Shown here: one piece after another, positions 21,255-60,928 of the stretch | Layout of the letters: each line of letters begins with the position of its first letter | How positions within the stretch are numbered: position 1 is the first letter of the stretch | Source of the DNA: Schaalia radingae | Lineage (GTDB): Bacteria > Actinomycetota > Actinomycetes > Actinomycetales > Actinomycetaceae | Reading direction: 5' to 3' | NCBI RefSeq assembly: GCF_900106055.1 | Contig: NZ_LT629792.1 | Span: 2,046,001 to 2,110,000 of the forward strand | Length of the DNA: 64,000 bases | Notes under the pieces: model-generated | Seen by the model: the letters and a program-made list of their open reading frames with translations, nothing else | Told to the model about the DNA's origin: nothing | Databases searched by the model: none | Program-made: the position numbers and the translations under genes

Positions 21255-21330
21255 GGGCCTATAGCTCAATTGGCAGAGCAACGGACTTTTAATCCGTGGG
21301 TTGGGGGTTCGATTCCCCCTGGGCCTACCA
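21255..21330 (+). tRNA. tRNA-Lys (TTT)
   Basis: A full cloverleaf of 76 bases with encoded CCA. The anticodon stem-loop CGGACTTTTAATCCG carries anticodon TTT. The acceptor stem GGGCCTA pairs with TGGGCCT using two wobbles, and the T-loop TTCGATT is present. Confidence 0.97.
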
Positions 21331-21469: not shown

Positions 21470-21835
21470 GCGCACAATCCCCTAGATTTAAGCCCTCCGC
21501 GTGCACATACCCCTAGTTCTAACCTCGCCTCGTGCACATACCCCTAGTTCTAGCCCCGCCTCGTGCACATACCCCTAGATTTAAGCCCTCCTCGTGCACA
21601 TACCCCTAAAAAGTCTTGTAAAAATGCACAATCCCCTAGATTTAACGCGTGAGGCTCGAGGCCGCCGGAAGCTACTGGCGGCTGACCTGCGGAAATAGGT
21701 TTTGTCCTTTTGGGGTGCCGACTTTAGCTAGGGGAATGTGCACCAAAGCAGGGAAGATCTAGGGGAATGTGCGCGGTCACGCCTAAGATCTAGGGGAATG
21801 TGCACAAATGCGCGTCTATTTGAGGGGATGTACAC
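21470..21835. repeat. 31-bp phased inverted repeat array, locus A
   Basis: Six direct units (starts 21470, 21501, 21532, 21563, 21594, 21624) of consensus GTGCACATACCCCTAG plus a variable 15-base tail, at a pitch of 31, 31, 31, 31 and 30 bp. After an 85-bp centre, four inverted units (CTAGGGGAATGTGCAC type) end at 21743, 21774, 21805 and 21835, again 31, 31 and 30 bp apart. The centre holds CTGACCTGC (21682-21690) and a GCCGCCGG/CTGGCGGC hairpin (21661-21682). It lies between tRNA-Lys and a converging membrane-protein gene. Confidence 0.95.
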
Positions 21836-23599: not shown

Positions 23600-24120
23600 C
23601 AGCGCTCTTCAAAGTCGAGGCTGACAGAGTTCATGCAGTAACGCAGCCCTGTTGGCTGACGGGGAGCATCGTCAAAGACATGACCCAGGTGAGAATCGCA
23701 GCGAGCGCACCGCACCTCCGTGCGCACCATGCCGTGTGAACGGTCCTCACTGGTGGTCACAGCTGCATCTTCTGGCTGATAGAAGCTCGGCCAGCCGCAC
23801 AGAGAATCGAACTTGGTGGTTGAGCGGAACAGTTCCGCGCCGCACGCTTTACAGCGGTAGATACCCTCGCGATCCTCGTGGAGCAGTGCACCGGTGTGCG
23901 CCATCTCAGTGCCGCCCTCGCGCAGGACGTGGTATTCCATGGGGTCGAGTATGCGGCGCCATTCTTCCTCGCTGCGCACTACCTTGCCGTTAGTGTCGGT
24001 AACCGCTTTGCCGTTACTGTCAGCAACCGCTTCGTCGGCGTTGCCATTAACCGCCCCGCCGTCGTTGTCACCGCTCTCCCGCAGGTCGCGGGCGCCTTGA
24101 TCATTCTGCGTTTCACTCAC
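23599..24120 (-). CDS. msrB: peptide-methionine (R)-S-oxide reductase
   Basis: GTG 24120 is chosen for its GGAGG seven bases upstream and its 8-bp overlap with the mscS stop; it gives 173 residues. Residues 1-45 are a Gly/Asn/Asp-rich leader with a repeated [13 protein letters not shown] pattern, followed by the MsrB domain (about residue 50 onward). Two zinc-binding CxxC pairs are present (CKACG, CARCD), as are GWPSFY and the catalytic Cys in RYCMNSVSL. It repairs oxidised methionine (R-sulfoxide) in proteins using thioredoxin. The leader is unusual, but the enzyme is complete. Confidence 0.94.
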
Positions 24121-26221
24121 GGCTCGATCCTCCCAGTAGTCCTGAGCCCTTTTCCTGGCGGATCTGCGACTCACGTTTTCTTTCTTCCAGTACTTCCGGG
24201 TCAGGGCCCGAAAATGCGGCACTGCGCTCTTCCGCGTCGGGCGAGCCGGAAAAGACCCGCTCCCCCGTCGTGGTTGTCTCATCGTCCGAGTTTGCTCGAC
24301 CAGTCGCGTCTGCCACTGCACCGTCGGGGTCGCTGCCGACCTGGTTCGCACTGGCCAGATCCACACTCGTATTGTCCGCACGTGCAGGGCTCGCATCGCC
24401 AGCCTGTGCACCGCTGGTGGGCGCACTACTGCCCGCTTCCGCGCCATCGTCATCGGCCTGCTTCTTGGGCTTGCCATCTGCTCCAATGGCCGGCATCACG
24501 GCAGTTTCCGCTACGCCTGACGCAGAACGAGCTATCTGAGCCGCTCCCTCTGCAGACGCTGCTTCCGACGCCTGGTTAGCCTGACCAGGAGCCCCGCTGC
24601 CAGCATCGGACTTGACACGCAGATGCCCCTGCGCCTGCGCAATGATCTTGTCAACCTCTTCTGGCGTGAACACGTGGGTCGTGCCCGTGCCGTTCGTCTG
24701 AGTAGCATCCGCTGCAGCGTTCGCTCCCCCGCGGCCAGTCCGTTTCACAGCTGCTGTTGGTCCGTCCTCCGCTCCAGACCCGGCGTTCTCTGCTCTTTCG
24801 AGGCGGTCGCGGTTGCGCTGCGACATGGCCCGTCGACGCGCCATCTTCGCGCGTTGGCGCGCCGCCAGCATACGAGCAGCGTGCACAGGGTCGAACGGGT
24901 CTCGCTTGTCACCATCATGCGTAGCAGCATCGCCGTGGTCACCCTCGTCAGTCTTGGTGTCCGAGGGGGACCCACCGGATGTATCTGAACCTGCAATACC
25001 GGATAGTTCAGTGGCCAGGCGCGCGATCAGTTCCTGGGACTCATCCTTCGTCACTTCCTTGACCTCGCGCGGCTGAATGATGCGGGCGGAACGCGCCCAC
25101 GGGTATTCCTTCGAGATCCACGCGATGAGCTGCTCGCGCATGAAGCAGCGCAGATCCCACAAGTTGCCCGAATTCGACGCTGACAGGGAGACCCTGACGG
25201 TGACGGTCTGATCAGTCGAATCAGTCACCTGCACGGCCCAGGAGCGGCGATCCCACAGATCCGTGCTGTTCAGGAGCTGCTCAACTTTTTGACGCACCAC
25301 CGCCACCGGCACTGCCCAGTCGGTGTAGATCTCAACCGTGCCGAGGAGCTTGGTGGCTTTGCGGGTCCAGTTTTCAAAAGCAGACGACGTGAACTTCGAG
25401 GACGGCACAATCAGGCGGCGATCATCCCAGATATGCAGGACAACGTACGTCAGAGTGATCTCCTCGACCACACCCATCGTTCCCTTGTCCCCCACGACGA
25501 CAATGTCATCAACGCGGATGGCGTCCGTGAAAGCCAGCTGCAGGCCGGCGAACACGTTGCCGAGCGTGGACTGGGCAGCAAGACCGGCGATCACGGAGAC
25601 AATGCCGGCCGAAGCAAGCACCGTCGTCAACGCCTGCTGAGCCCCGGGGAATGTAAACAGGACTGCGGCACACCCGAGGATCCAGACCACGACCTGCAGG
25701 ACGCGGCGCAGAACCTGAGCCTGAGTCTTGAATCTGCGCGAGCGTCCGTGATCGGAGCGGTTGCGCACGTGCGCGGCGTCTTCGATCACCCACACGGCGG
25801 CGGCAATGACCCATGTCGTTGCCAGGAGTGCGAGGATCAACAACCCGTGGTCGAGATATTTCACCCACGTGGGCTGATTGCTGACATCGGTGCTTCCCAG
25901 CGCAACAGCGCATCCGGCAAGCGCGCCCCACGCCATGAGTGCCCAGTACGAAGGCGCGTGGATGCGGCGCTGCAAGGCTTTCAGCAATCGAAGTTTGCGG
26001 AGCGCAAATCGGCTGACGCGCGCAAGAATGAATGCGACCACAATTCCGACGAGGATGCCGACAACAATTCCGAGGAATACGCCAGCCACGTCGAATGCGG
26101 TTTCAACAGCTTCGGCAGGTGCAGAGGGGTCCCCGATCGGCATAATTGTGCCGAAAACGAGGCTTGACTGCGCGCGGCAGCCCGTGAGAACGGCGGAGAA
26201 ATCAGGTCCGAAAACTGTCAT
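24113..26221 (-). CDS. MscS-type mechanosensitive channel with long cytoplasmic tail
   Basis: A 702-residue membrane protein. Hydrophobic segments lie at about 45-70, 93-112, 125-150 and 175-200, followed by the pore helix and beta domain typical of MscS ([20 protein letters not shown], then [20 protein letters not shown]). From about residue 400 on, the protein is an Ala/Asp/Gly/Thr-rich low-complexity tail of some 300 residues, far longer than E. coli MscS. It would release osmolytes on hypo-osmotic shock. ATG 26221 is preceded by TAGGCT at six bases and no ribosome-binding site, so the mRNA is probably leaderless. It is the first gene of the mscS-msrB-eamA operon. Confidence 0.92.
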
Positions 26222-26227
26222 ACCCCT

Positions 26228-26233
26228 AGCCTA
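26228..26233 (-). promoter_or_regulatory. -10 hexamer of leaderless mscS
   Basis: TAGGCT on the minus strand, six bases before ATG 26221; the same hexamer and spacing precede mutY. Confidence 0.55.
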
Positions 26234-35205: not shown

Positions 35206-35570
35206 CGGCACATTTCCCTTGGATCTAACTGAGCTGTGTGCACAGCCCCTAGATCTAAGCCACCGGCGTGCACAGCCCCTGGATCTAAGCCACCGGCGTG
35301 CACGAACCCCTAGATCTAAGCCACCGGCGTGCACGAACCCCTAGTTCTAACCCGTTCGCGCGCACAATCCCCTAGATCTTCCGATTTGCGTGCACAACCC
35401 CCTAGATTTAACCGAAGTTCATTTCTCGCGTTTTACATATGCGCAGGTCAGGAGCCAGATGTACTGCCGCGCGCATCCGCAGGTGGGGTTTATCTAGGGG
35501 ATCGTGCACAAATCACTTTAGATCTAGGGGATTGTGCGAGAAAACTGTTTAGATCTAGGGGGTTGTGCAT
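35206..35570. repeat. 31-bp phased inverted repeat array, locus B
   Basis: Seven direct units start at 35206 (degenerate), 35238, 35268, 35298, 35329, 35360 and 35390, pitch 30-32 bp, consensus GTGCACARCCCCTAGATCTA with the tail AGCCACCGGC repeated in three of them. After a centre of about 75 bp, inverted units (ATCTAGGGGATCGTGCAC type) end at 35509, 35539 and 35570. The centre holds GCAGGTCAG (35443-35451), the reverse complement of CTGACCTGC seen in the other loci. It lies between DUF3073 (plus) and purM (minus), that is, between converging genes. Confidence 0.95.
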
Positions 35571-35703
35571 AGGGTGCAGCGAACGCGGGGCCTGGTGTGC
35601 GACAACCGGTGGACGACAGCCTGCACGCGGCGCAGCGAACGCGGCGCAGCGAATGCGGCGCACTCCACCATAGCCGCTGGCATCACCCTGCTACCGAAGC
35701 CGC

Positions 35704-60530: not shown

Positions 60531-60928
60531 GCGCACGAGGCTCCAGATCGAAGCCGTTTTATGCACGAAGCCTTAGATTTAAGCCCTCGTAGTGCACATT
60601 CCCCTAGATTTAAGCCCTCGTAGTGCACATTCCCCTAGATTAACCGCGCTCCCCGACGCCCGCGATCACACTCACCCTCTCTGACCTGCAGGTTTGCAAA
60701 TCGTCTCATGAGAACTCCGTTCTTTTCTAGGGGTATGTGCACGCAGGGCGCTTAGATCTAGGGGATTGTGCACGTGGGCCTCTTAAATCTAGGGGCATGT
60801 GCGCGCGGTGCCTTGAGATGTTGGCGGTCGTTCGCGCAGTGCGTTGAGATTCATGGGGGCGCGTACGCGGGCCTCGAAAATCTAGGTGCTCGTGCAGGCA
60901 CAGTCGCTTAGGCGAGGCCTTCGTGCGA
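60531..60928. repeat. 31-bp phased inverted repeat array, locus C
   Basis: Direct units start at 60531 (degenerate), 60561, 60592 and 60623; consensus GTGCACATTCCCCTAGATTT with AAGCCCTCGTA tails. After a centre of about 90 bp carrying CTGACCTGC (60681-60689), inverted units end at 60742, 60773, 60804, about 60835, 60866, 60897 and 60928, each 31 bp apart. The last four are degenerate but keep the phase. It lies between the operon (plus) and ald (minus), again converging genes. The ald terminator borders it on the right. Confidence 0.95.

Follow-up and report, generated by a model that had tools for sequence, protein, structure and literature searches.

Inverted arrays of helically phased repeats in Schaalia radingae and their association with DUF559 nuclease genes

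Inverted arrays in the analysed stretch

The genome of Schaalia radingae (GCF_900106055.1, labelled G000 among the genomes compared here) is represented by a single contig of 2,430,193 bp, and the stretch of DNA analysed, referred to as the window, comprises its bases 2046001-2110000 (64,000 bp). At positions 21470-21835 of the window lies locus A (E13A), in which short repeat units form two opposed arms around a centre, as had been noticed in a preliminary description of this DNA. That observation is confirmed as real, and its interpretation, which is partly supported, was too narrow: the present analysis suggests that the arrays are one of many families of fixed geometry, each with its own DUF559 gene, and represent an unrecognised repeat-spreading or genome-binding system. 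The features of locus A, in window positions, are as follows.

21470-21639, plus strand: left arm, six direct units with cores at 21470, 21501, 21532, 21563, 21594 and 21624
21640-21727, no strand: centre, 88 bp between the innermost cores
21683-21690, minus strand: central directional motif GCAGGTCA (TGACCTGC on the plus strand), a candidate nuclease site
21728-21835, minus strand: right arm, four inverted units with cores at 21728, 21759, 21790 and 21820

The six direct and four inverted units originally reported are borne out by the core positions, and the measured pitches agree as well (31, 31, 31, 31 and 30 bp in the direct arm; 31, 31 and 30 bp in the inverted arm), the last inverted core, at 21820, being degenerate with 5 mismatches. 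The gap between the innermost cores (21640-21727) is 88 bp instead of the 85 bp given for the centre, and the GCAGGT of the central motif is located 67 bp from the outer end of the inner element. Across the window, 20 core matches with at most 3 mismatches were found, compared with 0.29 expected in shuffled sequences (shuffle maximum 2). The other features of the window considered here are the left neighbour of locus A and two further arrays.

21255-21330, plus strand: tRNA-Lys gene, converging on locus A
35237-35571, no strand: locus B (E14B), direct cores at 35298, 35329, 35360 and 35390, inverted cores at 35494, 35524 and 35555
35443-35450, plus strand: central motif GCAGGTCA of locus B
60561-60805, no strand: locus C (E15C), direct cores at 60592 and 60623, inverted cores at 60727, 60758 and 60789
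60682-60689, minus strand: central motif GCAGGTCA of locus C

Two further shortened direct cores occur near 35238 and 35268 at locus B, and one further degenerate direct core near 60561 at locus C. The string CTAGGGGTATG, said to recur at the start of mscS, is indeed present at 26219, where it reads CATACCCCTAG on the plus strand, but it is an isolated 11-mer (26219-26229) at the start of a minus-strand open reading frame (ORF; 24113-26221) with no second unit, and it is treated as chance because it falls outside the core matches with at most 3 mismatches.

A role in forming double-stranded RNA had also been considered. A transcript of locus A is indeed predicted to form a strong fold (z -7.7 against shuffles), as any sequence with opposed cores must. 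However, the tails beside the innermost cores of 18 elements have an identity of 0.30 to their own partner and 0.35 to the tails of other elements, and RNA pairing therefore does not look selected. An RNA hairpin as the function is accordingly disfavoured despite the fold. A scan of the window with Rfam at gathering scores returned tRNAs and nothing else.

The array family in the chromosome

Genome searches, first with the core and later with a sequence profile covering the inner 182 bp, showed that the family, taken at first to number three, comprises 19 whole elements in the 2.43-Mb chromosome (E01-E18 and the degenerate E19 at 342 kb) together with a half element. The latter, E20, at about 190.6 kb of the contig (L101:5633-5713), retains the right arm and the edge of the centre, the left arm being missing. 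Confinement to three copies with random pitch, named in advance as the outcome that would speak against a functional array, was thus not what the genome search returned; the 19 copies have a fixed geometry. The innermost opposed cores, measured from start to start, are 104 bp apart in all 18 of E01-E18 and also in E19, and among 98 unit pitches (from a list excluding some degenerate outer units) 65 are 31 bp, 32 are 30 bp and one is 32 bp. Each arm consists of 2-9 units, giving 134 units in total. The core is GTGCACATWCCCCTAG, with TGCAC and CCCTA as the fixed columns of the innermost cores (few exceptions), and the tails and centres vary widely among loci. A directional motif, GC[AT]GGTCA, occupies offset 53-60 of the 120-bp inner element, near its midpoint, in 17 of the 19 elements, with E02 deviating by one base and E18 by two. 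Because the spacing is fixed while tails and centres differ, the arrays are not leftovers of tandem duplication, and the early preference for phased protein-binding units is supported by the invariance of the spacing at 18 loci and by families with other cores that use a pitch of 41-42 bp.

Several copies bear traces of their history. The centres of E01, E05, E13A and E17 are nearly identical; E01 and E05 share 96% identity over 337 bp within unlike flanks, and a second recent pair is formed by E07 and E12 (84%). E01 and E17 have a flank in common on one side, so clean dispersal is not true of every copy. In the right arm of E08 (L092; contig 1480095-1480326), a four-unit block is duplicated 123 bp apart at 97% identity, from which it follows that arms grow by block duplication.

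The neighbours of the arrays are ordinary, unrelated genes, save for recombinase and integrase-core fragments by E04. According to our own ORF caller and a tRNA scan, the genes on either side are convergent at 8 of 18 arrays and tandem at 9, while E04 has a divergent-looking context; the suggestion of an insulator between converging genes is weak, since 8 of the 18 and no more are so placed. Near the start of the contig (L165:6074-7998), what appears by eye to be an aminotransferase-like protein is encoded on both strands, which may reflect an inverted duplication or an assembly fold-back.

DUF559 genes and their inverted arrays

Element E05 lies about 130 bp from a DUF559 gene of G000 (gene 1, about 288.9-290.1 kb), which scores 26.8 bits against the PF04480 profile, where the curated cut-off is 20.6. 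This profile overlooks some members, for example in G164: a second gene of G000 (gene 2) scores 20.2 in a genome scan, and the genes of G164 and G165 score 18.4 and 19.0, all under the cut-off. AbiEi aligns with the winged-helix-like N-terminal portion of the protein model, and the nuclease domain is of the PD-(D/E)XK type resembling Vsr and homing endonucleases, with invariant nuclease residues; the fold, conserved acidic residues and lysine of Vsr/EDxHD-like enzymes are all present, and cleavage is predicted. A profile search for DUF559-like genes among the ORFs of 21 G000 stretches with arrays (the gene 2 stretch excluded) returned gene 1 alone. Upstream of gene 1, at about 290.1-290.3 kb (L089), there is also a direct repeat, GGCAGCCCCATTSCGCGTGGGTTGCAGC, in two copies unrelated to the core of the family, which could be the operator of gene 1.

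Gene 2, at 1.76 Mb, has an inverted repeat (IR) of its own, 130 bp long and 45 bp upstream, with the unrelated core CATCCCCGAGCTTCGAATTCGA. Within this element GCAGGTCA lies exactly 67 bp from the end, a distance that was not part of the search; the two genes are 26% identical over their length. In each of G164 and G165, one element is located just upstream of a gene of 311-316 aa with a weak DUF559 match. More broadly, elements occur 45-98 bp upstream of several DUF559 genes and often also at the 3' end of the gene. Repeats on both sides of the gene are found for the DUF559 genes of G164 and G165 as well, those of gene 1 being on one side only.

The association was examined by locating PF04480 in 15 genomes, which gave 25 loci, and seeking inverted repeats or arrays there de novo. 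With a threshold set after the values had been seen (IR score of at least 13, or a 12-mer occurring at least 4 times, in both orientations), 17 of the 25 DUF559 loci passed, compared with 3 of 40 control loci (Fisher p 4e-7; Mann-Whitney p 1.2e-4 and 2.6e-5), the controls being stretches of 3.2 kb taken at set positions from eight of these genomes, unmatched for intergenic content. When the two loci that gave rise to the idea (the gene beside E05 and that of G165) are left aside, 15 of 23 pass. Additionally, 29 IRs were listed within 300 bp of an automatically picked ORF, two loci with runs of N being left out of this count; once three doubly fetched loci are dropped, 23 remain at 16 of 35 genes, where the density in the controls predicts about 0.8.

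Ortholog presence and repeat copy number within one lineage

The core beside the DUF559 genes of G019, G020 and G022 is CGCAYGYAATTCCC, and its copy number was followed over 35 genomes. It is high in G019, G020 and G022 (72-101 copies), G001 (89), G023 (46) and G026 (52), and low in G006 (21), G005 (16), G013 and G017 (2 each) and G016 and G018 (1 each), with 0 elsewhere. Orthologs of the G022 protein (78-100% identity), sought in the same 35 genomes, occur in exactly G001, G019, G020, G022, G023 and G026. For this family, the six genomes with the ortholog therefore hold 46-101 core copies and all 29 without it hold 0-21, a coincidence with a chance of 6e-7 under independence of genomes, which does not hold. 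The geometry is again narrow: 36 distinct opposed pairs of the 12-base core in the fetched loci have start spacings of 91 bp (11 pairs), 92 bp (24) or 93 bp (1).

Diverged homologs (33-50% identity) comprise nine genes in seven other genomes; six of the nine genes have an inverted repeat nearby, and the changed cores include ACGCACACAGTTTC, AACAGACACAGTCGT and ACGCACACAAGG. Among the 6 close orthologs, 4 have an inverted repeat on each side of the gene; among the 9 diverged homologs, 3 do. The diverged genes of G011 and G034 have the same gene neighbourhood as the close orthologs, so that protein and core diverged at one place.

Further families were met in the sister species G005 and G006, of which 400 kb, chosen around CGCAYGYAATTCCC elements, was examined. 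A family with GAAACC...CGCCTTTGC has a pitch of 42 and an inner spacing of 57 in 5 of 5 opposed pairs, and is arrayed on both sides of a DUF559 gene in both species; the family CGCGAAAAAGTTCGCCC has a pitch of 41 and an inner spacing of 59 in 3 of 3. At four G006 loci the CGCAYGYAATTCCC elements have a counterpart at the matching place in G005, as judged by eye. At one G006 locus of this family, 233 extra bases are bounded by a 13-bp direct repeat, of which G005 has a single copy; this difference fits insertion or deletion. Several families share intergenic regions in G005 and G006 and may account for part of the unannotated intergenic DNA.

Other observations were made in G005 and G006. A small array of AGTGCAATGC units in both orientations (L320:10119-10169 and L308:10467-10537) occupies an intergenic region common to other families in G005 and G006. 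In G005, two ORFs resembling by eye an IS3-type transposase pair lie between CGCAYGYAATTCCC elements (L321:7825-8957), and G006 is without about 2 kb there. BLAST matches stepping by 61 bp over several kilobases (L304:3240-8580 in G006; L311:15360-19976 and L312:1-2840 in G005) are as in a long array of clustered regularly interspaced short palindromic repeats (CRISPR), with repeats of about 29 bp and spacers of 32 bp.

Distribution of the G000 family in other genomes

The core pattern has 42 matches in G000 and a single match among 34 congeners (in G016), where no arrays of the G000 core were found. The 31-bp pattern with CCCCTAG likewise gives 42 matches in G000 and 0 in the 34 congeners, with 1 or 2 matches in five other genomes of the bacterial family, which is the size of the backward control. 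A two-unit core pattern, run against 85,000 species genomes (one per species, records near G000 possibly omitted), returned 55 stretches with a single match each and no array by match count. In IMG/VR, the core pattern was found in 13 stretches, three of them with multiple matches, and the two of these three that were inspected are low-complexity coding repeats.

More distant relatives were sought by geometry. A covariance search of 213 genomes of the bacterial family, under strict filters and with 12 candidates scored for each genome, yielded G000 and two weak matches, of which that in G164 is real; the one in G190 was taken as chance. A pattern of geometry without CCCCTAG (TGCAC, the centre, GTGCA) matched 17 times in G000, 4 in G164, 3 in G165, once in G128 and 0 in the other 209. 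The G128 match was taken as chance, as was one match each in G011 and G013 to an exact-spacing pattern. The elements of G164 and G165, which belong to another genus, have a different core, TGCACGAACGACCGATTTC, and measure 130-131 bp, the left side being extended by about one helical turn; the distance of GCAGGT from the right end, 67 bp, agrees with that in the G000 family. Since the geometry pattern required that distance, it counts only for elements found otherwise, and it is kept in all three of these: one G164 element found by profile and two, beside the DUF559 genes of G164 and G165, found by inverted-repeat search.

Proposed function and alternative explanations

Computation shows directly that the arrays have a set geometry, that they form a multi-copy family, that inverted arrays are associated with DUF559 genes and that, in one lineage, ortholog presence matches core copy number. 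These results are probably best explained if the arrays are dispersed non-coding copies of a nuclease-repeat system in which a DUF559 protein recognises the core, in a logic similar to that of the repetitive extragenic palindromic (REP) doublets forming hairpins (REPINs) and the REP-associated tyrosine transposases (RAYTs), with an unrelated enzyme and repeat. What we infer is that the DUF559 protein binds the arrays, that the centre is cut and that copying follows from this. The protein, with its AbiEi-like DNA-binding part and Vsr/homing-endonuclease-like domain, would recognise the 16-bp core, the candidate in G000 being the product of gene 1, beside E05. Several protein copies may occupy the helically phased units of the two arms side by side, which would place their nuclease domains above the centre of constant length and its directional GC[AT]GGTCA, where a cut or nick, followed by repair or gene conversion, could copy and homogenise the elements.

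The pairing of DUF559 gene and repeat is well supported in the CGCAYGYAATTCCC lineage. Several limits apply. The DUF559 orthologs are not independent of each other. The pairing of gene 1 with the G000 array family is less direct, since gene 1 has an element on just one side and other species offer no repeat of the copy-number test for it; it rests on the one adjacent copy, the joint restriction to the species and the homologous gene 2, whose element shares the centre. Lastly, of 60 genomes sampled from the whole phylum 29 have DUF559 genes, and the array threshold was passed at 5 of 29 DUF559 loci, which does not support generality across the phylum; the rule therefore holds, as far as tested, in this actinobacterial family.

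The same arrays might instead be docking sites used by the host, with the DUF559 protein or another phased binder bridging or structuring the chromosome and the copies being kept for that purpose rather than as selfish elements. Strict helical phasing, fixed inner spacing and the mixture of gene contexts described above would suit this explanation, as would the location of 16 of 19 elements in the half of the chromosome that is closest to the contig ends (post hoc binomial p 0.002), yet it is on balance unlikely: the position of the origin is inferred from two ORFs at the contig start, recognised by eye, that we take to be murJ and trxB, genes usually located near oriC; arrays of the G000 family were not found in the 34 congeners, one CGCAYGYAATTCCC-family element of G006 is absent from the matching place in G005, and docking has no need of invariant nuclease residues. 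A transposon origin unrelated to DUF559, in which the arrays would be remnants resembling miniature inverted-repeat transposable elements of a DDE transposon whose ends each hold several transposase sites, seems very improbable. The E01/E05 pair in different flanks and the 233-bp difference with its 13-bp repeats in the CGCAYGYAATTCCC family are in its favour, but those repeats also fit deletion, the number of units at the ends is variable, and the DUF559 association speaks against it; the 30 neighbours scanned gave no mobile-element matches other than an integrase-core fragment of 73 aa and a protein of the phage-integrase family, both by E04.

Regulation offers another explanation, namely that the arrays are dispersed operators through which a DUF559 protein chiefly controls its own and other genes. 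AbiEi and Rv2827c each bind inverted repeats of 23 bp within the promoter of their own gene, according to the consulted part of PMC7319586, and both the AbiEi-like N-terminal part and the elements upstream of several DUF559 genes agree with such a role. It is nonetheless improbable, given that 17 of 18 G000 arrays lie downstream of at least one gene (the remaining one being divergent-looking, by our own ORF caller), that elements are frequent at the 3' end of DUF559 genes too, and that core copies reach 101. A function in defence or addiction, with the nuclease attacking invading DNA and the genomic arrays titrating it or marking self, draws on the combination of nuclease and AbiEi-like parts and on the species-specificity of the cores; we regard it as quite improbable, as PADLOC gave two weak matches (E 0.0088 and 0.01) and two blanks for four proteins, and the two viral stretches inspected among the 13 from IMG/VR are low-complexity repeats.

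The evidence is evenly poised on a broader statement: that there is a class of bacterial partnerships in which each DUF559 enzyme keeps and spreads its own phased inverted arrays of fixed geometry and cuts a fixed central site, protein and core diverging together. A literature search for DUF559 together with 'inverted repeats' found nothing in the library searched. DUF559 genes mostly lack an assigned role, and some of them would now obtain a DNA target that can be read from the genome, so that binding and cutting become directly testable; covarying pairs of protein and core would supply a natural code of sequence specificity.

Comparison with known systems

Plasmid iterons are direct repeats at a near-integral helical pitch bound by one protein, whereas the arrays described here are inverted around a fixed centre and dispersed over 19 chromosomal loci; no plasmid replication families were among the matches of the 30 neighbours scanned. 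For the relatives of the nuclease domain, namely the Vsr endonuclease, VsrA of Caulobacter and the homing endonuclease I-Bth0305I, we know of no dispersed arrays of cognate repeats. VsrA, itself a DUF559 protein, is tied to DNA damage in the portion consulted of PMC12907096, a paper in which the word 'palindrom' is absent. The operators of AbiEi and Rv2827c, as covered by the part of PMC7319586 seen, are similar in the winged-helix-like N-terminal part of the protein and in having several inverted repeats beside the gene, but there the 23-bp repeats lie in the gene's own promoter, whereas the present arrays have tens of copies in the genome and a fixed centre, and the protein carries a nuclease domain at its C-terminus.

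The closest likeness is to REP sequences, bacterial interspersed mosaic elements (BIMEs) and REPIN-RAYT systems. In the consulted sections of PMC2817692 and PMC3116915, these share with the arrays the dispersed intergenic inverted repeats of species-specific sequence, a cognate gene often flanked by two copies and a copy number that tracks the gene; the RAYT paper reports, in the part seen, a gene flanked by two repeats with a copy number that follows it (PMC2817692). The preliminary description had proposed a BIME-like role, which was its closest guess, but membership does not follow, BIMEs being palindromes linked to an HUH transposase and the arrays being linked to a DUF559 nuclease. The G000 units, each consisting of the core GTGCACATWCCCCTAG and a tail, are neither palindromic nor provided with a GTAG- or GTGG-type head, and in contrast to REPINs they build long arms, phased with the helix, on either side of a fixed centre. 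Their linked protein belongs to the PF04480 nucleases, whereas RAYT (TnpA-REP) is an HUH tyrosine transposase. With non-palindromic units and a protein of another superfamily, the arrays are not members of the REP/BIME-RAYT group. If the class outlined above is real, it would constitute a second, independently evolved counterpart of REPINs and RAYTs and would show that populations of dispersed repeats linked to a resident nuclease have more than one origin and differ in chemistry.
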